Below are positions 7,208 through 19,942 of a DNA stretch of 64,000 nt, piece after piece; positions within the stretch are counted from its first letter, which is position 1, and each line of letters starts with the position of its first letter. The notes beneath the pieces are model-generated. The model was given only the letters and a program-made list of their open reading frames with translations, did not search any database and was not told the origin of the DNA. A program made the translations under genes and the position numbers. The DNA is from Sphingomonadales bacterium (GTDB lineage Bacteria > Pseudomonadota > Alphaproteobacteria > Sphingomonadales > Sphingomonadaceae), in assembly GCA_009995225.1 (NCBI GenBank), contig JAACPW010000004.1, forward strand, positions 62,001-126,000. Direction: 5' to 3'.

Positions 7208-7247
7208 CAATGCTTAGAGCCGGTTCTGTCCGAGGAACGCGTTCGCC

Positions 7248-7544
7248 ATGGATAGACCCCCTCCCTTCACTATCTCGCGCATCGGCAAAGTCGACAACAT
7301 CGAAATGGTCGATGCACTCGGAAGCTACATCCTGTGCGATATCCCGGCACAATCGGTGGACCTCTTCGTCAGCGCATCATCATATTGGTGTACGAAAGCG
7401 TCCGCCGAACAGTACGCCGAACGGGTCCTTGCGCAGTACAAATTCGCGCAAGAGCAATTTGGCTCCATGGCCGTCTCATCCAATGTCCAGCGGGACAACC
7501 AAACACCGCACGTCCACTTCGTTGGAGGCAGCCATAATGGATAA
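7248..7544 (+). CDS. Short relaxase-like protein (Mob_Pre N-terminal homologue)
   Basis: 98 aa from ATG at 7248. It aligns with the N-terminus of the following relaxase without gaps for the first 33 residues (ISRIGKVDNIEMVDALG versus IMRIGKIHNYTVLDAVE). After an internal deletion of roughly 39 residues it aligns again through the metal-binding segment (AQYKFAQEQFG, then QTPHVHFVG). Residue 27, where the relaxase has its presumed nucleophile His27, is Tyr. The first metal ligand region reads QRDN instead of HLDE, but the PHVH end is intact, whereas the relaxase has PHVQ. Its stop overlaps the relaxase start by 8 nt, and the relaxase ribosome site GGAGG lies inside its last codons, so the two are translationally coupled. 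Either a partial gene duplicate or a small partner subunit. Confidence 0.6.
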   Translation: MDRPPPFTISRIGKVDNIEMVDALGSYILCDIPAQSVDLFVSASSYWCTKASAEQYAERVLAQYKFAQEQFGSMAVSSNVQRDNQTPHVHFVGGSHNG

Positions 7545-9948
7545 GCGCCCATACTATGCCATCATGCGGATTGGAAAAATCCACAATTACACCGTGCTGG
7601 ACGCAGTCGAAGGTCACAACACACGAAAAATACCCACCGGCATCGTTGCTGATCGGCCGGCTCCCATCGACTGGATCAAACACGACGGATCGTTCTCAGA
7701 TCGCGCAAAGCACGTCTTGCGCGACACCGGCGCCGAGTGGGAAAAGGGGAAAATCCTTGCCGTTGAAGTCCTCGTCACGACTTCGCCGGAGTGGTGGAAG
7801 AACGCGTCCCCCGAACAGAAAGCGGGATGGGCCAAAGCAAATTTCGAGTTTGCGCAGGATCGGTTCGGACCGGGGCTCATCTCATTTATCCCGCATCTCG
7901 ATGAGAGCACTCCCCACGTGCAGTTCGTTGGCCTGCCGCTGTATAATGCCAAAAAGGGCACGCCGGGCCCGAAACCATCAAAGCCTGAGAGCATTGCTCG
8001 CCGCGCCAAGGAAGAAGCCGAAGCGCCGGAAATCTGGCGCTTGTCCTATCACGAAAAATTCGGGGGCGATCCGGAGCGACTCGCCAAGCTTCAAACGCGC
8101 TATCACTGCTACGTGGCACACTTGGGCCTCGAACGTGGCAAGGACACCCGCGGCCTGAACATCAGGCATCAGACCTTGAAAGAATACAAACTCAAGCTTC
8201 AACAGGCGGAGCAAAAGCTGTTCGAACAGCAAAAGGCGATCGATGCCCAGTGGGCGAAGATCGCCGAAACCCAGACCATGCTCGAACACTACGATCGGCA
8301 GCTTGCCGAAAAGCACAAGCGATTTGCAGAAGCAAAATCTCAGTTCGATGAGAAACAGCTCAAGCATTTCGCTGAGACAGAGAAGTTCCGGGTCTGGGAG
8401 GAGGCATTCGCACAAAAGGAACACGAGTTCGACAGGCGCCTCAAAGCACTTGCGGCCAATGAAGAAGCAGTTGCCGCGCGCACGGCAGATATCAACCGGC
8501 GTGACGCCCAGATCGCAAAGCGCGAGAAAGAGCTGGACTTGGCCGTGGCTGCGCAGGCTGAAGAACGCCTGCGTCTTTACGAAAAGCTAGTGGAGGTAAG
8601 CGCGAAGGAAGGCACGTTAGAGGATCGCGGTCGCCGCGTCACAGAGCGGGAGACGATCGTGACCAATCGTGAAGCGGTTGTCACGGAACGAGAGAGTTCG
8701 CTCGAAACGACGTTGGCGCAAGTGGCGATCCTGGGGCGCATCATTACCAGGAAAATCGCAGGCACATGGAACAGGACAGATGCAAAGCCAGAATTCACTG
8801 ACGATGCGTTGACCACCGAGGAACGAAAGGCTCTCAGATCTCCATTGCCACCCATCCTCGGCGAAGCGATGCGTCTTGCGGTGGGCTTTGCAGATCAGCG
8901 GAAAAAACTGCGGGCGAAAGCGAAAAAGGCGCTGGCTCGGCTATTTAACAGCAGGGCAGCCGTCACCGAAAGAGAGGCGAGTGCTGCTGCAACCCATACT
9001 GCAGCGTTGGGGATTGTTCGAAACGCAACGGCTGCCCAAGCCGATGCGGACATGCGCATCGCTGAAGTTGAGCGCCGCGAACAGCTGGTCGCCGCCCAGG
9101 AATCGGCCGTAGCCAAAGACAGGCTTGAAGCGGAAGCCATGCTCGACCACGCGGCCACACGCATTGCTGAGGTGAAATCAGCCGAAGCGGCGCTGCCAAC
9201 GCTGACCGCGCAATTAACGCAAACGAGGTCAGAAATCGAAACGGCGAACGCGGATCTCGAACGTGTTCGATCGACAGTTGAAGAAGGGAAAACCGCAGAG
9301 GTTGCAGCGCGAAACAGCGCGGCCGCTGCAGAACGTCAACGCGATGCGGATCTTGCGGCTGCCGATGCAGCCCGGGCAGAGGCCGATGAGGCGCGTGACA
9401 AGGCAATGGCTGAAAAGACCATCCTTGCACAGGTTAAGGCCGATCGAGCCGCACTGGAAGCGGACAAAGCGAGCTTGCAGGGTGACGTCGATACACTTCG
9501 CGCTAACAAGGAGAGCCTTAATCTCGAGAAGCAGTTGTTCGAAAATGAACGTGCCGAATTCGATGAAGTCAAAAACACGCATACGATATCGACGAAGCTA
9601 CTGGCAGGCATCCTCGAATCAAACCAGCACGCCCGCATGAACGAAAACACCCTAGAGGTCTTCGCTCCGGGGCAGATCGACGGGGTTCCTCAAGTGACCG
9701 TGGACGCAACTGGGTTTGCTCCGTGGCTCCCCGCGCTTGTGGACACATACGCAGGATACAATGAGCAATGGTTCTCGCTTGGCAAAATCGAAACACAATT
9801 GGCGGACCAAATTCGGACCTTGGCAGAGCAATTCCCGGAGAAGCGGGCAGAACTGCGGGCGCAGGTTGAACAAATTAAGGCGTCGGCAGCACTGCACCAA
9901 AAGCCAATGTGGTCAACGCGGGACCAGCAGGGAGGGATTGGTGGCTGA
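7537..9948 (+). CDS. MOBV-type relaxase (Mob_Pre family) with long coiled-coil tail
   Basis: 803 aa from ATG at 7537, with GGAGG at 7524-7528; the longer open frame upstream is spurious because it overlaps the short relaxase-like gene. The Mob_Pre domain covers ~1-210. His27 in VEGHNTRK matches the nucleophile HNxR of MobM. H120, E123 and H127 in HLDESTPHVQF match the metal site of MobM (His126, Glu129, His133), but the last ligand (MobM His135) is Gln129. Residues ~210-690 are heptad-like coiled coil rich in Glu, Ala, Arg and Gln. The last ~110 residues form a globular-looking end. Relaxases nick oriT and pilot the strand in conjugation. No mating-pair or coupling gene is visible, so the element is mobilisable at most. 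Confidence 0.8.
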   Translation: MDKRPYYAIMRIGKIHNYTVLDAVEGHNTRKIPTGIVADRPAPIDWIKHDGSFSDRAKHVLRDTGAEWEKGKILAVEVLVTTSPEWWKNASPEQKAGWAKANFEFAQDRFGPGLISFIPHLDESTPHVQFVGLPLYNAKKGTPGPKPSKPESIARRAKEEAEAPEIWRLSYHEKFGGDPERLAKLQTRYHCYVAHLGLERGKDTRGLNIRHQTLKEYKLKLQQAEQKLFEQQKAIDAQWAKIAETQTMLEHYDRQLAEKHKRFAEAKSQFDEKQLKHFAETEKFRVWEEAFAQKEHEFDRRLKALAANEEAVAARTADINRRDAQIAKREKELDLAVAAQAEERLRLYEKLVEVSAKEGTLEDRGRRVTERETIVTNREAVVTERESSLETTLAQVAILGRIITRKIAGTWNRTDAKPEFTDDALTTEERKALRSPLPPILGEAMRLAVGFADQRKKLRAKAKKALARLFNSRAAVTEREASAAATHTAALGIVRNATAAQADADMRIAEVERREQLVAAQESAVAKDRLEAEAMLDHAATRIAEVKSAEAALPTLTAQLTQTRSEIETANADLERVRSTVEEGKTAEVAARNSAAAAERQRDADLAAADAARAEADEARDKAMAEKTILAQVKADRAALEADKASLQGDVDTLRANKESLNLEKQLFENERAEFDEVKNTHTISTKLLAGILESNQHARMNENTLEVFAPGQIDGVPQVTVDATGFAPWLPALVDTYAGYNEQWFSLGKIETQLADQIRTLAEQFPEKRAELRAQVEQIKASAALHQKPMWSTRDQQGGIGG

Positions 9949-11017: not shown

Positions 11018-11617
11018 TCAGTGCGCCTTGGTATTCTCACATGACCCAAGGTATGAGTCTGACAAGATATCTGAAAATACCACATCGTCCAATTCAGGCC
11101 TGTCCAAGTCAGTTATGTTAAAATTGATATTCTTCTGAAAAAAATTCCCGAGATTACGATTCTGAGATTTGTCAACCAGAAAGCTCCGGACCCTAGCATT
11201 ATCATCTACGACATAATAAATAATTTCTCTTTCATCAGACGATAAAATATAGTCTTGAACAAAAATTCCCGAATGATGTATCTTACGATTGTAGTATCCG
11301 ACGATCCGCGCGTTAATTTTATTGAAGGCTAATATGTCGCCAACTTCACCTTGCGGTCCACAATTCCGCCTCCAGATTATTTTTAGTTCTGAACTGCTGA
11401 GACAAAACATGTCGCCCGCTGAACAATCGTCAATTGGACGGCTTACAACCCTATCTGCTACCGGAGAAATTATAGAACCTTCTTTCAGATCAATTTGGAA
11501 AGCTGGTATAACAGTATATCGATCTATTGAAATATTCTTTGAAGCTATTACTTGATGAGGAAACGTCATCACTACAAGAAAGCTGAAAAATTTAGTAAAT
11601 TTTATTCGAGTGGGCAT
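11018..11617 (-). CDS. Small exported protein at the end of the C39-export operon
   Basis: 199 aa from ATG at 11617, chosen for GGGAGG 5 nt upstream. Residues 1-~26 (KFTKFFSFLVVMTFPHQVIA) look like a Sec signal peptide ending in an AxxA-like site. The mature part has two Cys (MFCLSSSE, WRRNCGPQGE) that could form a disulphide in the periplasm, and mixed beta-strand character. Not recognised. It is clearly AT-richer than the rest of the window, as expected for transferred DNA. It is the last gene of the export operon, separated from the double-glycine-leader gene by a perfect hairpin, and could be an immunity, receptor or accessory protein. That role is a guess from position only. Confidence 0.6.
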   Translation of the reverse strand: MPTRIKFTKFFSFLVVMTFPHQVIASKNISIDRYTVIPAFQIDLKEGSIISPVADRVVSRPIDDCSAGDMFCLSSSELKIIWRRNCGPQGEVGDILAFNKINARIVGYYNRKIHHSGIFVQDYILSSDEREIIYYVVDDNARVRSFLVDKSQNRNLGNFFQKNINFNITDLDRPELDDVVFSDILSDSYLGSCENTKAH

Positions 11618-11645
11618 GATAACCTCCCAAGATCTTATGGATGTC

Positions 11646-11673
11646 GGAGACGCCGAAGTTGTTCGGCGTCTCC
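11646..11673. terminator. Perfect 12-bp hairpin between substrate and last operon gene
   Basis: GGAGACGCCGAA-GTTG-TTCGGCGTCTCC, with no T-tract. It lies just after the stop of the 330-aa gene on the minus strand and 29 nt before the ATG of the 199-aa gene. Most likely it partially terminates transcription or protects the 3' end of the upstream message, so that the two genes are expressed at different levels. Confidence 0.6.
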
Positions 11674-11679
11674 CGTTAA

Positions 11680-12672
11680 TCAATGCAGGTTTACATCGGG
11701 ACTACTGGTACCACCTCCGCCGCCACCACCATAGCCACCGCTTCCGGACGAAGAGCCACCCGAAGGCGGTGTGCCGCCGCTGGTTGATGATCCACTGGCG
11801 CCGCCGCATTCGTTTGCTAGATCAGCCCCAGCCTGGCCAGCCCCTGGCTCAATGGATAGGGTCAACGTAAGCGTCGCATTATACCCCGCTCCGGGACTCG
11901 ACCAGAAGCTGGAGATTCCGGCTGCACCAAGTATTGTTCTCCCGACAGAATTATTCATGCTCTCTAGCTGAGAGAAGGTACTCGTCTGCTGCCATCGCTC
12001 AGTCACCTGCTCGGCACTTAGTCCAGCTAAACTTTGGCTATTGTCCGCCGCCCATTGTTGAAATTGACCGTTTGTAAGAGACTCAACTGCTCGCAATTGA
12101 TGTCCGACCTCGTGAACGATCAGCCAGTCCGCAATGTCACTATTTATGTTCTGACCCTGAATGGTTGGCGTATTAATCAAATCAAGGAGAGACGGATCGA
12201 CAACAGCAAAATCGTCAAAGCTTCCGCCAGCGCCATTTGTTGTTGTAAGGCTTGAAGAGAATACGAAATCATATCCGTCGAGAATTTCAAGTAACTCACC
12301 TGCGCTGAAAGCAATTTCAAAATTTTGACCGTCTATGGTGACCTGTCCTCTGAACACTGTATCCGGATTGATTGAGCCGAGCTGGCCTTTGATTTGGTTC
12401 AAGCGGTCTTCAAATGCCTGCTTCTTATTATTATCGAGGTTTGGGTCATCCTCCGGCGCTGTCTCATCATCACAAAAGGTTTCATCACTCATCGGCGGTG
12501 GTTCATCGCCACCGCCACTTCCGCCATAGGTGCCAGTCTCAAAACCCCCTCCACTGCCGCCAAACAGATTATCAAATTCCCATCCTGACGGTCTCCATCT
12601 ATGCACGACAATGCCACCGCTTACGATCTCAAGTTCTTCGTCGGTCAGTGGTCTGAATAGATTATTCACCAT
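11680..12672 (-). CDS. Double-glycine-leader protein with HEVGH motif: putative substrate of the C39 exporter
   Basis: 330 aa from ATG at 12672 with AAAGGAGCGAG just before it. Residues 9-20, LTDEELEIVSGG, fit the bacteriocin-type leader at every key position (L-12, T-11, E-8, L-7, V-4, G-2, G-1), so a C39 peptidase should cut after G20. The mature part has a Gly-rich linker (~38-56), an acidic segment, a central domain and H187-E-V-G-H191 in ADWLIVHEVGHQLRA, a zinc-metallopeptidase signature preceded by hydrophobic helix residues. The C-terminus is a Ser/Gly tail (GSGGYGGGGGGG). It is far longer than usual leader peptides of this class. Third zinc ligand and fold are not identified, so protease activity is unproven. 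Lower GC than the flanks. Confidence 0.75.
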   Translation of the reverse strand: MVNNLFRPLTDEELEIVSGGIVVHRWRPSGWEFDNLFGGSGGGFETGTYGGSGGGDEPPPMSDETFCDDETAPEDDPNLDNNKKQAFEDRLNQIKGQLGSINPDTVFRGQVTIDGQNFEIAFSAGELLEILDGYDFVFSSSLTTTNGAGGSFDDFAVVDPSLLDLINTPTIQGQNINSDIADWLIVHEVGHQLRAVESLTNGQFQQWAADNSQSLAGLSAEQVTERWQQTSTFSQLESMNNSVGRTILGAAGISSFWSSPGAGYNATLTLTLSIEPGAGQAGADLANECGGASGSSTSGGTPPSGGSSSGSGGYGGGGGGGTSSPDVNLH

Positions 12673-12692
12673 CTCGCTCCTTTACATTTCAT

Positions 12693-13490
12693 TTAGCGGA
12701 TACTAATTGCTCGCAATGAGCAATATTTGGTTTTTATTATTGCAGCATTCATGAACTCAAATAAAGGAATGGGATTCGAGTGGAGTTCCCATTCCCATAA
12801 TGCGCAAAGAAAGATTCTCTGGTTGACTAGGATTGCGGGTCGAAGTGGAAGAATCGGTGCGTTGAGAAAACCTTTCGAGTAAAGGAACGTCTGCAAAAGC
12901 ATCCGCGCAGTTCGTCCGTTACCGTCACTGAAAGGGTGTGCAATTAGAAAATCGACAAAAAGCCAGATTGCACGCTCCAATACTTGATCAGCTGCGCATG
13001 TTTCTGAGAAGGCGTCCAGCCATTCCGTGAGAAACGCCTCTGGAGGCGCGTTGCAGTCAAACAGCACCTTGTGACCGGACTTGAAAGGGGTAGTGCTGAT
13101 GCGGCCGTGCCGGAGCTCCTCGCTCCCTCCCAGCACTCGATTGATGTTGATCACAGCAGACACGTCAAGCGTTCCTGTTCCGACGGCCTGCCACGCCGCG
13201 AAAGCGCCGAGCTCGCTTGGAGGTCGCGCGTGAAATGGCGCACCGAGGCCGGATTCATAGTCTACGCCGAGAAACGCCAGAGTGTCGTTCATGCGGAGGG
13301 CAATGGGGAGCAAATGAGAGAAATGCCGATAGAGGTCTGCTTCGAGACCCACCGGCCAGCAATCTTTGCCAAGTCCTTCGATCACAAGTTCGGAAAGCGA
13401 GATGTTTGAGAACTTGACCTTCAGACAGTCGGGCAAGCACGGCTTAGGTTGCCGGCGGATCTGGAACGCGTTAGGATTAGTTTGCAACAT
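12693..13490 (-). CDS. Fic-domain protein (putative AMPylase)
   Basis: 265 aa from ATG at 13490, inside the 3' end of the sulfotransferase gene (14-nt overlap), with GAAGAG upstream; a TTG at 13505 is an alternative. H185-PFSDGNGR-TA-R196 is the complete Fic motif HPFx(D/E)GNGRxxR, so the nucleotidyl-transfer site should be active. Fic enzymes usually move AMP from ATP onto Ser, Thr or Tyr hydroxyls of proteins. I see no clear (S/T)xxxE(G/N) autoinhibitory helix at either end and no adjacent small antitoxin gene. Its place between the sulfotransferase and the secreted protein, in the same operon, suggests it modifies the exported protein or an operon partner rather than acting as a toxin-antitoxin module. 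That is inference. Confidence 0.8.
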   Translation of the reverse strand: MLQTNPNAFQIRRQPKPCLPDCLKVKFSNISLSELVIEGLGKDCWPVGLEADLYRHFSHLLPIALRMNDTLAFLGVDYESGLGAPFHARPPSELGAFAAWQAVGTGTLDVSAVININRVLGGSEELRHGRISTTPFKSGHKVLFDCNAPPEAFLTEWLDAFSETCAADQVLERAIWLFVDFLIAHPFSDGNGRTARMLLQTFLYSKGFLNAPILPLRPAILVNQRIFLCALWEWELHSNPIPLFEFMNAAIIKTKYCSLRAISIR

Positions 13491-14061
13491 AACCGAACTC
13501 TTCAATAGTCGCTCGATCTAATTCAGCGATGATCGCTTTCGATCGATCGTTGAGTTGTTCCGTGAAGGCCCTACCGGAAGCTTTGGAAGCATTTTCGTGA
13601 GGAACTGCCACAGTGGAACCGAACCTTGCTGCAAGCTCCTGCATTGCGGCCTCAATATCTTCGAACCGAAAGACAGTGGTTACGCCCTCCCACCATCGCT
13701 TCTGGTCAATGCCGAACCAGTTTGCCTTGGCCTCAGACATTGCGTTGTACTCGATCCAATCGTTAAGTCCGAACCGACCGGCGATTAATGACGAAAGGTT
13801 GTTGCGGAGCATTGCAGCGTACATAGGGCTCCGCTGGAACTTGTAGAGTGAGACGTATCGCTCCCATGGATTGCGTACGACACAGAATGAGAAGAACTGA
13901 TCCCAGTCATCCTGAAGAAATTTGCTGCGGATCGTACTCGCGTAAACATGTGCGAAACGAAAAGAATCAGCATCGTCGAGACGTAGCAGTCGCACGATGG
14001 AGCGCCCGGCTGTCTTTGGGTTGTGAACGAAGACCAGCTTCTTGGGGTGATCAAGATACAT
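13477..14061 (-). CDS. Sulfotransferase (Sulfotransfer_2-like)
   Basis: 194 aa from ATG at 14061, overlapping the end of the exporter gene by 11 nt. The PAPS-binding 5'-phosphosulfate loop is VHNPKTAGRSI (residues ~12-22) and the 3'-phosphate-binding segment is CVVRNPWERYVSLY (~60-73), both typical of PAPS-dependent sulfotransferases. It is short but both cofactor motifs are intact. It would transfer sulfate to an acceptor hydroxyl. In Xanthomonas RaxST sulfates a Tyr of the RaxX peptide exported by RaxA/RaxB; the present protein sits in a comparable operon but belongs to a different sulfotransferase branch, so its acceptor (Tyr of the substrate, a glycan or a lipid) is open. Confidence 0.75.
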   Translation of the reverse strand: MYLDHPKKLVFVHNPKTAGRSIVRLLRLDDADSFRFAHVYASTIRSKFLQDDWDQFFSFCVVRNPWERYVSLYKFQRSPMYAAMLRNNLSSLIAGRFGLNDWIEYNAMSEAKANWFGIDQKRWWEGVTTVFRFEDIEAAMQELAARFGSTVAVPHENASKASGRAFTEQLNDRSKAIIAELDRATIEEFGYVAN

Positions 14062-16312
14062 CGGAACGGACTCCCCTGTCCAAGTTCAGAAAATCGGGGG
14101 CCGTGACCACTGGCCCTTTAGGATCAGGCGACGGGCTAGTATCTGCTGAAAAAGGACGAAATGGCACGATAGACTGGTCGCCTGATGGTGCAGCGCTCCT
14201 CTTGGATACGCTACCGTGCCGGCACTCAATGACACGTAAGGCCGCTTCGAGCGTTGCCGGCCGATGCGCAACCGCGATGCGGGTAATGTTTAGTGCTTTG
14301 AGAACATCGAGGATCTTACCCTCGTTCTCTGCATCGAGATTTGCTGTTCCCTCGTCGAGGATCAGAACCTTCGGTTCAGGATAGAGCGCCCTTGCCAAAA
14401 GCACGCGCTGGAGCTGTCCACCTGACAGCACCGAGCCCATGTCGCCAACGAGCGTCTCGTAACCCATAGGCGTGGCCTCGATCTCGGCGTCAATCTGCGC
14501 CATGCGGGCAACCTCGCGAACGCGCTCCATATCGATTTCAGGATCGAAGAAGGCAATGTTTTCAGCCAGCGAACCGGCATAGAGCATGTCGCCCTGCGCA
14601 ACCGAGCCGATGCTGCGGCGATATTTTCCTTTGCGATAAGAGGAGATCGGCCGCTCGCCGAGCCGGATAGCCCCGCTCGTCGGGTTGAACAGGCCCATAA
14701 GAATCTTCATCAGCGTGGTCTTGCCGCCACCCGAAGGACCCGTGATCGCAATGAACTCGCCAGGCTCGATGGTGAGGCTCACCCCGTTCAGCACCATCGG
14801 CTCGTTGGTGCCGTAACGATAGAATACCCGGTCAAGCACCAGCGGCTTGCTAAAGTCCGGTTCCTCATTACTCCTTTCGGCCTCGCCCTCCTCGGTTGGC
14901 GTGAGGGCAATGTCGGCAATGCGGGTGAGGTGAACCTTGACGATCTGGTAGTTGATTGCCTGCTCCGTGATCCGCATGCCTGCATCGAGGAACTGCTGCT
15001 TGTAGGCTTGGAATGCGAAGATCATGCCGACTGTCAGAACGCTGTCGAATGCAAGACTGATCGCCACATAGACGAACACCACGCGCTCGGCGCCGATCAC
15101 GAACTGGCCGAGGGCGTCGAACCCAGCGGTGAGACGCCCGAGCTTGACCTGTGCATTGACCGCATCGGCCTTGCTCTTCTGCCACAGCCGCTGGCGATTG
15201 CCTTCCTGCCCGAACGCCTTGATCGCCGCTATGCCGCGCACGCTCTCGATAAAGTTGGAGTTCTCTTTCGCCATCGTGGTGATAACGTCGAGATTGCGGA
15301 GCTTGATCGCCTGCAAGAAGGCAAGACGCAGGGCGACGTAGAACCCGAGGGCGACACAGGCGACACCGCCCAGTATTGGCGAGTAGACAAACATCAGCGC
15401 CAGCGTCAGCATCGCCATCAGCCCATCGATGAAGGCCGCGATCATCCCCTGGCTGATCAGCTGGCTGATGGGCTGGGTCGAACCGAACCGCGAGATGATG
15501 TCGCCCACGTGCCGTTTCTCGAAATAGTCGAGGGGCAAGCGCATCAGGTGCCGGAACAGGTTGACGATCACTTGATAGGCGAGCGAGTTCGACAGGGTCA
15601 CCAGGATCAGCGAACGCAGCCAGCTCGCCATGAGGTTGATCACCGTGAGCCCGCCGAACCCCAGCGCCAGCATCAGCAGCAGGTCGCTGTCGAAGGCGGG
15701 GAACACCGTGTCGATCGAGATTTGCAGAAAGAATGGTGTTGCCAGCAGCACCAGCTGCATCACCAGCGACAGTAGCACGACATGACGGATTGTGCCCCAG
15801 AAGCCAGTCATCTTCGACCAGAGCTGGGTGATGTTGAGCTGACGCTGCTCAATCTTCGGCTTGAAGCTCTCCGAGCGCAGCAGATCGAGCGCGACCCCTG
15901 TCCATGAGCGGGATACGTCGGCTTCGCTCAGCACCAGGGCACCGCGTGCTGGATCGTGGATATGATAGCGCCGTCCACGGATACCGCCCGTGATCGCGGT
16001 CAGGACCACGAAGTGGTTGAGGTTCCAATGCAGGATCGCTGGCATGGCGAGATGCGGCAGATTCTTGATCTCGCCCCGCAGTGGGCGGGCATTGAACCCG
16101 ATGTCCTCAGCAACCTGCATCACCTGCTTGAGGTTTGCGCCCTTGAGGCTCATCCCGTAGCGCTGGCGCAGCGTGATGAGATCGGTCTTGTAGCCGTGGA
16201 ACCCGGCCACCATTGCCAGACACGCAAGAGCGCATTCGCTGGCCTCGCCTTGTGGAATATAGGGGGTCCGTTGCCGCCCGGAAAACTCCACAAGGTCGAG
16301 CGGGTTGTTCAT
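14051..16312 (-). CDS. Peptidase-containing ABC exporter (C39, CvaB/RaxB type)
   Basis: 753 aa from ATG at 16312, overlapping the adaptor gene stop by ATGA. The N-terminal C39 peptidase is complete: Q21 and C27 in PQGEASECALACLAM, H100 in WNLNHFVVL, D120 in HIHDPARG. A six-helix ABC membrane domain covers ~170-450. The ATPase domain has Walker A GPSGGGKTT, signature LSGGQ and Walker B VLILDEGTANLD, followed by AHRP. The protein should cut double-glycine leaders and export the cargo. A ~45-residue Pro/Ser-rich tail after the ATPase is unusual. Its obvious partner is the 330-aa leader protein two genes downstream. Confidence 0.92.
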   Translation of the reverse strand: MNNPLDLVEFSGRQRTPYIPQGEASECALACLAMVAGFHGYKTDLITLRQRYGMSLKGANLKQVMQVAEDIGFNARPLRGEIKNLPHLAMPAILHWNLNHFVVLTAITGGIRGRRYHIHDPARGALVLSEADVSRSWTGVALDLLRSESFKPKIEQRQLNITQLWSKMTGFWGTIRHVVLLSLVMQLVLLATPFFLQISIDTVFPAFDSDLLLMLALGFGGLTVINLMASWLRSLILVTLSNSLAYQVIVNLFRHLMRLPLDYFEKRHVGDIISRFGSTQPISQLISQGMIAAFIDGLMAMLTLALMFVYSPILGGVACVALGFYVALRLAFLQAIKLRNLDVITTMAKENSNFIESVRGIAAIKAFGQEGNRQRLWQKSKADAVNAQVKLGRLTAGFDALGQFVIGAERVVFVYVAISLAFDSVLTVGMIFAFQAYKQQFLDAGMRITEQAINYQIVKVHLTRIADIALTPTEEGEAERSNEEPDFSKPLVLDRVFYRYGTNEPMVLNGVSLTIEPGEFIAITGPSGGGKTTLMKILMGLFNPTSGAIRLGERPISSYRKGKYRRSIGSVAQGDMLYAGSLAENIAFFDPEIDMERVREVARMAQIDAEIEATPMGYETLVGDMGSVLSGGQLQRVLLARALYPEPKVLILDEGTANLDAENEGKILDVLKALNITRIAVAHRPATLEAALRVIECRHGSVSKRSAAPSGDQSIVPFRPFSADTSPSPDPKGPVVTAPDFLNLDRGVRSDVS

Positions 16313-17565
16313 GCCGTCCGGTTCAACACGGCATTGAGTGGCTGCAAAAGCCAGGCAAGAAACGTCTGACGCTCAAGCACAATGTTGGCCTGAAGCGTCA
16401 TTCCTGCCTGCAGCGGGCTGGGGTCGCCGAACGCATCGATGCGCTGCCGATCAAGCGAGACTTTGATCCGGTAAACCGGCTCCTCGAACGGGAACGGGAT
16501 GTCTGTCTCACGCGGGTCGACTGCGATCCGCGAGATATTGGCCACCTTTCCGCCGAAGCTCCCGAAGCGCTGGTAGGGGAAAGCGTCATAGAGGAGCCGG
16601 GTTTCCTTCCCTGCTTCCACAAATCCAACCGCGCGGGTCGGGGCATACAGTTCGGCAACTAGCTCCGCACCGTCAGGCACGATTACCATCACGGGGCGGG
16701 ATGCGTTGACCGAGCGGCCCACGCCGGCAGCCAAGGCTGTCACCCGCCCGTCTATAGGCGCACTGATGATGTAGCTCTGTTCGCCCTCAAGCCTGGCTTG
16801 CTCCGCATTCAGCGCCTGCAAGCTCTCGCGGATTTGCGAGACGCCCTGTTCGGCCTCAATGGCGACGCTGGCGAGTTGAGCACGTGCCTGCTGCGCCTCA
16901 GAAGTTCTCGCGGTCAGCTGCTGGCGGAGGTTGGCAAGGCTCTGCTGTGATGACAGTAGGGTCTGGCGGCGACGCTCCAACTCGACCTTGGTGACGAACC
17001 CGCGTTCGACCACCGCTGTGACCTGATCGAACATCAGCTGATTCGAGGCAACCACCTGTTCCTGCAGCGCGATCTGATCGCGCAGGCTGAGCGCCTGCTG
17101 CTCGGCCGAGGCGATGATGGTGGTCAGCCGACCACGTTCGGCAGTCGCCCTACCGTCTGCCATTGCAACCTGAGCCTCGGTCAGCTGCTGCCTGGCGGCA
17201 AGCGCTCCAAGCCCCCTCCCAGCGACATCCCCGCCGCCGGTCGACCCGCGGTCCGAATTGATCACCAGAAGCCGATCGCCCTTGCGGACCAGCTGACCTT
17301 CCAGCACCGCAAGTTCGCTCACTACCCCGGGCTGCAGCGCCACGACCTTGGCACTGGGAACGCTGGTCACGAGCATCCCTGGCACGGTCTCGATCCGCGC
17401 GTATGTGCCGACGCTGACCCAGACAGCCGCAATTGCGATTATGCCAAAAAGCGAACCCGCAAACAGCTTAGTGGACAGCGGCTGAGTAAAGACGACTTCG
17501 CCGTGCAGGCGGTCGTTTTGCTGCTCAAGCGCTTCTATCCGGAATAACGTCAAGTGCGACCTCAC
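16309..17565 (-). CDS. HlyD-family periplasmic adaptor (CvaA/RaxA type)
   Basis: 418 aa from ATG at 17565. Residues ~35-58 (FAGSLFGIIAIAAVWVSVG) form one membrane anchor. A split lipoyl/barrel-sandwich domain follows (VVALQPGVVSELAVLEGQ). Residues ~130-250 form a long alpha-helical hairpin rich in Gln, Ala and Arg, and a beta-barrel ends the protein (IDGRVTALAAGVG). It joins the inner-membrane exporter to an outer-membrane TolC, for which no gene is present here. First gene of the operon. The promoter should lie in 17566-17750, but no clear -35/-10 pair stood out. Confidence 0.9.
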   Translation of the reverse strand: MRSHLTLFRIEALEQQNDRLHGEVVFTQPLSTKLFAGSLFGIIAIAAVWVSVGTYARIETVPGMLVTSVPSAKVVALQPGVVSELAVLEGQLVRKGDRLLVINSDRGSTGGGDVAGRGLGALAARQQLTEAQVAMADGRATAERGRLTTIIASAEQQALSLRDQIALQEQVVASNQLMFDQVTAVVERGFVTKVELERRRQTLLSSQQSLANLRQQLTARTSEAQQARAQLASVAIEAEQGVSQIRESLQALNAEQARLEGEQSYIISAPIDGRVTALAAGVGRSVNASRPVMVIVPDGAELVAELYAPTRAVGFVEAGKETRLLYDAFPYQRFGSFGGKVANISRIAVDPRETDIPFPFEEPVYRIKVSLDRQRIDAFGDPSPLQAGMTLQANIVLERQTFLAWLLQPLNAVLNRTA

Positions 17566-18103: not shown

Positions 18104-19942
18104 TTATGGCTTCACTCGATAGTCGGAGGTCTGGATCGTGATCCAGCGCGCCAAATCTTGTGTCCGCAACCAAAGCGCATCGGCATGCGGCACGGAATTG
18201 GTCATCGCGTAGAAAGCTCGGGCCTGATCGGCGGTCATTCCCATCTCCTCGTAGTAATCAAGATAGAGCCGGTTTTCAGGCGCATCTTGGGCAAAGTCGG
18301 CAGGCTCGCGCCCTAGTTGGTCTCGCCAGGAATGCACCGCGAGCATTGCACCGGGGTCCAGTGTTCGGCGCGTGCCAGCAAGAAACAGCTCGACGGCGCC
18401 CGATCGCACCGATCGGCCAGGGGGCACTCGGGTGGTTAGGCCAGCGGCACGGATTGCTCGGCCTAGCGTGAGATTCGCCAGATCATCGCTAGTCCCCGGC
18501 GCATCGGCAAACTCTAGCTCTTCCAGATCCGGAAACGAGGCCAGCATTGCGGCAAAGGCTTGAGGGCTGGCGGCATCAGTCGAGGCATCCAGCGCGGCTC
18601 GCTTGTTATCGATCACGCGGAACGGGCCGAACCGTGCGATCCCAGCTTGCTCAGCCGCGGTGTGCGGCGTTTGCGCAATGAAACGCCCTTTACGCTCGAT
18701 AATTGTCTCAGTGACGACAATGCCAGTGCTGCCGAAACGGGAATGTTTCGTGGCCAAGACCGCGGCCGAAGGCACACTGACGGACCGATCATCCACGCGC
18801 ACCCATCGCTGGCTGGCAGAATCCCATTTCTCGACCCAATCCACCTGTTCAACCACGCGCGGGCCCACCTGCGCATGGGTCGGTGCCTCAGGTATCAGCA
18901 GTGCAGCGGCAACAAGCAAGAGGGCAACGGCACGACCCATACCCGCGCCGATCGGAGGGTTCCATAGCCGCCCAAACTGACCTGCTTGAGTGCGAACGAA
19001 CTTATTGACAGCGGCTAGTGTTCGCACGTTTCTAAGCCTGTTGTCACTTTTGCGGCCCTGTGCGGAGAATTGGCGCGGGCTTCTGCGGTCGCGCAATGCC
19101 CGTTCAGCCTGCGCCACCCGGCCCGCCAGCCCTGCGGCGTTGACATTCTGAATCTCCAGCCCGGGATAGGCATTGCATTCTAGCACCTGCACCCCGCGGG
19201 CCTCGTCTATTACGAGATCGACCCCGACATAGCCCAACCCCAGCGCCGCCGAACAACGTCGCGCGGCCGCGACCGCTTCGTGCCAGAAGGGGATCGCCTC
19301 GCCGATCAGGCTCGCGCCCGTCGAGGGGTGAACTGCGATCTCGTCCTGCCCTAGCACGGCGCGGAAAATCGAGCCGCCCGCAAAGTCGATCGCTGCCCCC
19401 ACGGCCCCCTGATGCAGGTTCGCCCTGCCCCGCGATTCCACTGTCGGCAAGCGGGTCATTGCCATCAGCGGAATATCGCCAAAACAGATGATGCGGATAT
19501 CGGGAAGGCCATAGGGCACGAGCCGCGCAAAATCGGGATGGGTGCGTATGAGCGGCTCGAACAGCGCAGCATCCGCATTGCTGCCTTCCAGCGACAATTC
19601 ACCCGCCATAATGCGGCGCACGTGGCGCGTCAGCATTGCAGGGGTCAGCACCTCGCCGTTCAATTGTCGCCAGCCACCGTCGACCCGGCCATCAACCAAG
19701 ATGACGCCCTCTCCGCGTCGCCCGCGGTCGGGCTTGACCGCAAAGGCATCGGGAAGGCTGGTAAAATCGCAATTGGCGAGCGCGCCCTCATCCCCGATCA
19801 GAGCCAGGGTCGGCGGCACCGGCACCCCGGCAGCGGCAAGCCGTTCCTTGGTCTCGAACTTCTGGTTCACCCCCGTGATCGCTTCACGGGGGTTGAGCCG
19901 GGCGATGAGGGCGTTGCGACGATTCATTCCGAGAACGGGCAT
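18104..19942 (-). CDS. ATP-grasp (RimK-like) ligase fused to a membrane-anchored C-terminal domain
   Basis: 612 aa from ATG at 19942, with GGAGCC upstream. Residues 1-~285 match alpha-L-glutamate-ligase-like ATP-grasp proteins: GMNRRN start, DAFAVKPDRGRRGEGV phosphate-binding loop, and VQVLECNAYPGLEIQ metal-binding end. This class joins an amino acid to a carboxylate using ATP. A helix at ~337-352 (AVALLLVAAALLIPEA) is followed by ~255 residues resembling predicted periplasmic COG3904-type proteins (MLAVHSWRDQ, YLDYYEEMGM). A cytosolic ligase and a probably periplasmic domain in one chain is notable. It follows the 7TM gene, as in known ligase/7TM operons. Confidence 0.7.
   Translation of the reverse strand: MPVLGMNRRNALIARLNPREAITGVNQKFETKERLAAAGVPVPPTLALIGDEGALANCDFTSLPDAFAVKPDRGRRGEGVILVDGRVDGGWRQLNGEVLTPAMLTRHVRRIMAGELSLEGSNADAALFEPLIRTHPDFARLVPYGLPDIRIICFGDIPLMAMTRLPTVESRGRANLHQGAVGAAIDFAGGSIFRAVLGQDEIAVHPSTGASLIGEAIPFWHEAVAAARRCSAALGLGYVGVDLVIDEARGVQVLECNAYPGLEIQNVNAAGLAGRVAQAERALRDRRSPRQFSAQGRKSDNRLRNVRTLAAVNKFVRTQAGQFGRLWNPPIGAGMGRAVALLLVAAALLIPEAPTHAQVGPRVVEQVDWVEKWDSASQRWVRVDDRSVSVPSAAVLATKHSRFGSTGIVVTETIIERKGRFIAQTPHTAAEQAGIARFGPFRVIDNKRAALDASTDAASPQAFAAMLASFPDLEELEFADAPGTSDDLANLTLGRAIRAAGLTTRVPPGRSVRSGAVELFLAGTRRTLDPGAMLAVHSWRDQLGREPADFAQDAPENRLYLDYYEEMGMTADQARAFYAMTNSVPHADALWLRTQDLARWITIQTSDYRVKP

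Follow-up and report, generated by a model that had tools for sequence, protein, structure and literature searches.

What a sulfotransferase and a Fic enzyme are doing inside an operon for the export of a leader-bearing protein is the question raised by a six-gene cluster in a 64,000-nt stretch of a Sphingomonadales genome (the window). A check of the list of open reading frames (ORFs) of the window confirmed six minus-strand ORFs within 11018..17565, which encode, in order, an HlyD adaptor, a C39 exporter, a Sulfotransfer_2 enzyme (here the sulfotransferase, ST), a Fic enzyme, a protein with a double-glycine (GG) leader (the cargo) and a small signal-like protein. These are the six genes that an earlier note on this DNA had named, with Pfam support for the HlyD, C39-ABC, Sulfotransfer_2 and Fic assignments, and the domains and their order confirm its view of a C39/GG-leader export operon with Fic and ST as integral parts. 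The first four genes overlap (HlyD/ABC -4, ABC/ST -11 and ST/Fic -14 nt), the cargo gene follows that of Fic after 20 nt and the small gene lies a further 62 nt on. The ST-Fic pair, termed the module below, is an optional part of this kind of operon and recurs elsewhere. The operon is best read as one in which the cargo is modified while it still has its leader, a reading that we consider probable.

The order exporter, ST, Fic and leader protein is common to three species of the genus, represented by the window and by two further genomes (G018 and G023), with genes that overlap or nearly touch in all three operons. When 150 relatives were searched with the Fic of the window, near full-length matches were obtained only in G023 (68-69%) and G018 (45-46%), followed by G132 from another family of the order (6.4e-9) and by others from 2.2e-7 down. 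Patterns from the three genus Fics, run against 84,980 named species genomes, returned two loci only (Erythrobacter rubeus KMU-140 and a Porphyrobacter metagenome-assembled genome), equivalent to those of G018 and G023, although such patterns would not reach loci like that of G132 and do not imply a wider absence. An alignment of three STs, built without G132, matched among 396 genomes of the order its own sequence, G018 and G132 (2.7e-47), with no further match stronger than 6.9e-13. At E<=1e-100 the ST is found in 3 of 114 genomes of the genus, the fourth match (G066, 2.5e-18) lying at a locus (L117) where neither exporter nor Fic was found, and it occurs in 1 of 29 genomes of the family of G132. 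A class-wide search of 385 genomes gave the query itself and one weak match (L114) without exporter or Fic. Seven loci with distant ST relatives (L113-L119) were considered and rejected as further examples, as they have no C39 exporter, HlyD or Fic and their leader patterns look like chance. In all four cellular loci with an ST of the module family a Fic gene directly adjoins, and these searches found no cellular locus with a module-type ST but no Fic. The earlier note had named conservation across unrelated islands as support for a unit, and the unit does recur: apart from the exporter, ST and Fic genes, no window ORF of at least 100 aa matches the available flanks in G018 or G023 (one G023 flank being just 1.3 kb), so the unit sits in different genomic places.

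The fourth locus is of a different build. The G132 cluster consists of HlyD, C39 exporter, an 82-aa leader peptide, a 501-aa JmjC_2 protein (1.8e-23), a 131-aa ORF with a second leader peptide, Fic and ST. Its exporter is 43-44% identical to that of the window, compared with 88% for G023 and 84% for G018, and thus the pair recurs on a second exporter lineage. The G132 ST is 36% identical to the window ST and is set apart from every other ST of the order. The two leader peptides are 93% alike over their 30 N-terminal residues, which makes a start 23 residues downstream of the listed one probable for the second. Clusters for ribosomally synthesized and post-translationally modified peptides (RiPPs) with C39 (LanT-type) exporters combine a leader-bearing precursor, maturation enzymes and leader removal during export, and, judging from gene content, the short G132 peptides and three candidate modifying enzymes look like such a cluster. 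The difference from these clusters is that Fic and Sulfotransfer_2 would form the maturation pair here and that the cargo proteins are large.

Both enzymes carry their expected motifs. In the window ST the 5'-phosphosulfate-binding (5'-PSB) motif HNPKTAGRS lies at residues 13-21 and the 3'-phosphate-binding (3'-PB) motif RNPWERYVS at 63-71, with H38 between them; H38, R63 and S71 are invariant and K16 and T17 nearly so in an alignment of 11 ST relatives. The Pfam match and the conserved residues agree with what defines a sulfotransferase, namely the fold and the two motifs predicted to bind 3'-phosphoadenosine 5'-phosphosulfate (PAPS), and the best Foldseek matches of a structure model (pLDDT 76.6) are all sulfotransferases, none at E<=0.001. 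A kinase for adenosine 5'-phosphosulfate (APS kinase) is present in three of the four module genomes, the fourth being 72% complete, which points to a supply of PAPS in those three. In the Fic enzymes the catalytic motif HPFx[DE]GNGRxxR is intact at all four loci. The closest solved relatives of the window Fic, a FICD homologue and SoFic, share the Fic core and this motif but differ in the N-terminal part, and the motif [ST]xxxE[GN], which we take to be the Fic inhibitory motif, is matched in only one of the four module Fics; a structure model was too poor (pLDDT 49.9) to judge autoinhibition. The dN/dS ratio is 0.04 for ST between window and G023 (at a dS of 3.1, near saturation) and 0.20 and 0.26 for Fic, 0.20 being the value for window and G023, which means purifying selection on both genes as far as dS can be measured.

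The exporter and cargo fit processing at a GG leader. C27, H100 and D120, which we assume to be the C39 catalytic triad, are present in the window exporter, and the corresponding residues are in place in G023 and G132, while the third motif pattern is unmatched in G018. The C39 domain is accompanied by a GG leader on an adjacent gene product, as is characteristic of C39 GG-leader export. The leader is 68% identical between window and G018 over 19 residues ending at GG, 62% between window and G023 over 29 residues, and 68% between G018 and G023 over 25 residues running 6 beyond GG. Cargo bodies vary between loci, and most of the similarity lies in the leader and the first residues of the glycine-rich stretch; body matches were seen for G018 and G027 (40% over 48 residues, a weak match at E 0.04) and for G251 and G265 (E 0.003). 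No Pfam family passes for the window cargo, which has only weak leader-type matches (ComC 0.084, cerein-type 0.035), residues 78-277 of its body had no relative besides itself in 198 genomes and none in plasmid records, and no solved relative of the body was found. An HEVGH motif in the body may be a zinc-protease-like site.

We suggest, with rather more confidence than doubt, that ST and Fic together form an optional maturation module, which modifies leader-bearing cargo before C39 cleavage and export, in the manner of a RiPP system. The cargo would be made with its leader and serve in the cytoplasm as the substrate of the sulfotransferase, with PAPS as donor, and of Fic, which would probably use ATP and transfer AMP. 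The most likely place for modification is the glycine-rich stretch behind the leader, in which the three genus copies keep a tyrosine. Cleavage behind GG by the C39 domain would come next, and the decorated protein would leave the cell through the HlyD/ABC pair together with an outer-membrane channel encoded on the chromosome. An antibacterial role would fit cargo bodies that change from strain to strain, like those of bacteriocins or polymorphic toxins, and in the window the small exported protein, possibly an immunity or partner protein, follows. If a tyrosine is counted as glycine-rich when 13 residues around it include at least 6 glycines, a criterion set after inspection, such a residue occurs in all three module-bearing genus cargos and in 1 of 9 module-less ones (p 0.018, post hoc). 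Hence this tyrosine is the best candidate for the modification site, as a lead and not a result.

Several observations weigh against this reading. Only four cellular examples of the module are known to us, and most exporters of the window type occur without it. Neither G132 peptide has a tyrosine in such a glycine-rich context (0 of 2), and the G251 cargo has one although ST is absent. The order of Fic and ST is reversed in G132 relative to the genus loci, and the G132 Fic is only 28% identical to that of the window, its score in the window-Fic search (6.4e-9) being close to that of the next unrelated Fic (2.2e-7), so that it may come from another line and have been recruited separately; its high score in the order-wide Fic search arises by construction. 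In addition, three viral contigs (L130, L131 and L132, two of them nearly alike) each encode a tandem ST pair with no Fic found, so that this ST line also occurs apart from Fic. Even if the G132 Fic was recruited separately, the association of Fic and ST with a C39 exporter recurs.

The phage STs are about 190 aa in length, and identity to the window ST is 32-34% for the first member of each pair, about as high as for the G132 ST. Neither Fic nor a C39 exporter was found on the three contigs. On L131, the only one read more widely, the pair lies just after a gene for a 434-aa capsid-like protein of a T4-like phage (by eye), and such pairs are possibly the source of the module ST or serve in virion modification. 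Viral contigs contained 49 ST and 34 Fic loci, and ST, Fic and exporter were combined in none of them; one viral locus (L193) with a Fic match (2.1e-7) and a generic ABC match (27.7%) was taken as unrelated. Plasmid records gave no Fic match and two ST matches (24.6%) in Pseudoalteromonas, of which the one inspected (L113) showed no C39 exporter, HlyD or Fic.

That the module is optional follows from islands that share the exporter and lack both ST and Fic. Two candidate exporters were scored in each of the 396 genomes, which makes the counts lower bounds, and of at least 10 other exporters that are 65% or more identical to that of the window only the one in G018 has the module, while nine (G009, G080, G038, G065, G027, G021, G225, G251 and G265) have neither ST nor Fic in the operon. 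In these the leader-bearing gene comes directly after the ABC gene; the copy in G021 is damaged, and the contig with that of G225 is 8.9 kb long. The earlier note had regarded islands lacking Fic or ST as evidence against a unit: they are thus common as far as the exporter is concerned, but ST has Fic beside it at each of its four cellular loci. Trees of 21 exporters and of 16 adaptors call for no fewer than two changes of the module label on branches with good support, the long rows G401 and G000b being unsurely placed. A Fic gene does occur near the G251 cargo (L098:7444-8256) and ranks third in the order-wide Fic search (4.1e-15), but it is 36% identical over 92 aa and looks unrelated; it is encoded on the opposite strand at a distance of 1.6 kb, with an integrase-like gene as its neighbour. 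Its high rank is taken as chance.

These module-less copies would also be expected if the operon were an ordinary cassette for bacteriocin export or contact killing of the Caulobacter Cdz kind into which ST and Fic were inserted by chance as parts of an island. Such a cassette would also agree with the variability of the cargo bodies, of which some have glycine- and alanine-rich stretches, and with the MobV relaxase gene next door. We hold this to be very unlikely, as the insertion would have the same order in three genomes and recur on a second exporter, and the enzymes are under purifying selection. As described in PMC5380434, Cdz also relies on an alphaproteobacterial type I exporter, through which small glycine-rich proteins leave the cell, and has an immunity protein, but the account given there is of a five-gene cluster without ST or Fic, whose CdzC and CdzD are 86 and 84 aa long and judged likely unmodified by the authors. 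In place of an approximately 85-aa glycine-zipper protein and a membrane immunity protein the window has a 330-aa cargo and a small protein in which a signal-like stretch, rather than three membrane helices, was seen by eye.

A closer analogue is the raxX-raxSTAB cluster, in which a sulfotransferase, the HlyD-type RaxA, the C39 exporter RaxB and a GG-leader substrate are likewise encoded together, and RaxST sulfates RaxX before the leader is removed, as set out in PMC6637879. According to the same paper, the complete cluster is confined to Xanthomonas, and raxST homologues in other places mostly lack raxA or raxB as neighbours. The window operon differs in its extra Fic and in the size of its substrates, which have 330, 169 and 270 aa in the genus and 131 and 82 aa in G132, compared with a RaxX precursor of about 60 residues. 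The ST motifs are about 50 residues apart, whereas in RaxST they extend from Arg-11 to Ser-118 (as described in PMC6637879, by which description the two are compared). With this spacing, and a cargo that is a variable-body protein at three loci and a short peptide at the fourth, the designation RaxSTAB-like in the earlier note lacks support in a family sense; RaxSTAB is an analogue, RaxX and RaxST entering here through their published descriptions, and membership is not supported.

The RaxX precedent (PMC6637879, as described there) raises the alternative that ST alone matters for the cargo, through tyrosine sulfation, and that Fic is a toxin or a regulatory passenger. ST is indeed the more conserved of the two (78 and 60%, against 68 and 45% for Fic). 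The retention of Fic by ST at every cellular locus, the purifying selection on Fic and the lack of any antitoxin gene seen beside it make this distinctly improbable. Fic enzymes are mainly known as toxins, effectors and chaperone regulators, but an isolated toxin-antitoxin Fic gene is disfavoured, as Fic lies between ST and cargo in three genomes and adjoins ST in the fourth. Alternatively, both enzymes might be linked to the exporter and have their targets elsewhere, for example a host protein in the case of Fic, as a means of self-protection or regulation, and a small molecule or a sugar of the surface in that of ST. The Sulfotransfer_2 family is broad, the Foldseek matches are weak and mixed as to acceptor type and include heparan sulfate sulfotransferases, and many exporters of this type work with neither gene. 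On the other side are the tight operon spacing and the recurrence with a second exporter lineage, short leader peptides and a JmjC protein, and we regard action elsewhere as rather unlikely.

Within the preferred reading, that of cargo maturation, the two enzymes might even act in series on one residue, with Fic adding a nucleotide behind the leader and ST sulfating the attached ribose or a neighbouring tyrosine. The secreted protein or peptide would then be sulfo-nucleotidylated and represent an as yet undescribed class of RiPP. Such dependence would lead to the pairing seen in all four cellular loci, where neither enzyme occurs alone, but we think it quite unlikely. No described system joining Fic, sulfotransferase and leader-peptide export was found in the open-licence PMC literature (preprints excluded), and to our knowledge bacterial sulfation in the setting of an export operon has one well-studied example, RaxX. 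If cargo maturation is correct, Fic would gain a third job, the maturation of exported proteins, paired with bacterial sulfation. The four loci form a small cloneable test set with the nine module-less exporter loci as natural controls, and G132 offers short peptides suited to mass spectrometry. The features of the window operon are collected in Table 1.

Table 1. Features of the export operon, in window coordinates
Feature	Position	Strand	Evidence
HlyD-type periplasmic adaptor, 418 aa as listed	16309..17565	-	Pfam HlyD_3 2.1e-17
C39 peptidase-ABC exporter, 753 aa	14051..16312	-	Pfam ABC_membrane 9.8e-32, Peptidase_C39 2e-30, ABC_tran 1.5e-29
ST, 194 aa	13477..14061	-	Pfam Sulfotransfer_2 1.3e-8 (35.7 bits, cut-off 22)
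Fic enzyme, motif HPFSDGNGRTAR	12693..13490	-	Pfam Fic 5.5e-12 (46.8 bits, cut-off 24)
Exported leader protein (cargo), 330 aa	11680..12672	-	leader kept in G018 and G023
Double-glycine leader, residues 1-20 (LTDEELEIVSGG)	12613..12672	-	leader comparison
Glycine-rich stretch behind leader, residues 21-60	12493..12612	-	sequence
Tyr49 in glycine-rich context, candidate modification site	12526..12528	-	post hoc comparison
HEVGH (HExxH-type motif) in cargo body, residues 187-191	12100..12114	-	sequence
Perfect 12-bp hairpin between cargo and small gene, no T run	11646..11673	-	fold z-score -4.2
Small protein, 199 aa, N-terminal signal-like stretch (by eye)	11018..11617	-	start from ribosome-binding site

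Two gene starts differ from those of the earlier note, the coordinates of which otherwise stand. Fic most likely starts at ATG 13490 and not at the TTG 13505 from which the ORF was listed, because the aligned homologue begins there, and the small gene is placed at ATG 11617 because a GGGAGG ribosome-binding site precedes it, which removes the overlap with its neighbour. The HlyD adaptor is 82% identical to its homologue in G023 and 70% to that in G018, and these homologues start about 4 residues after the listed window start. The small protein matches no Pfam family. At three other loci (L091, L092 and L094) the gene behind the cargo encodes a protein with a signal-like start and SPGG...SAC-type motifs reminiscent of ClpP protease (by eye; no Pfam match). 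The hairpin between cargo and small gene is perhaps an attenuator or processing signal, and in a search of the operon for promoters and terminators the signals were no more frequent than in shuffles.

The G+C content drops from 58-62% in the exporter to 46% downstream of the cargo gene, which, with the MobV-type relaxase gene beyond, fits an island. That relaxase-like ORF (7210-9948; Mob_Pre 6.1e-13, NCBIfam MobV below cut-off) adjoins the cluster. On its other side, ORF 18104-19942 encodes an ATP-grasp ligase-like domain (ATPgrasp_ST 1.3e-55) fused to an exported-looking C-terminal part and seems to belong to a separate gene group. The genome of the window has a second C39 exporter (L110, G000:C21), 45% identical, with no ST or Fic nearby and transposase-like neighbours (by eye). 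In another genome, G136 (L107), the surroundings of a related C39 exporter include a GG-leader peptide, a 349-aa protein that is ATP-grasp-like by eye, with no Pfam match, and a protein related to the JmjC protein of G132 (24% over 192 aa, 6e-12); this gene content suggests that other enzyme sets are carried on the same exporter chassis.
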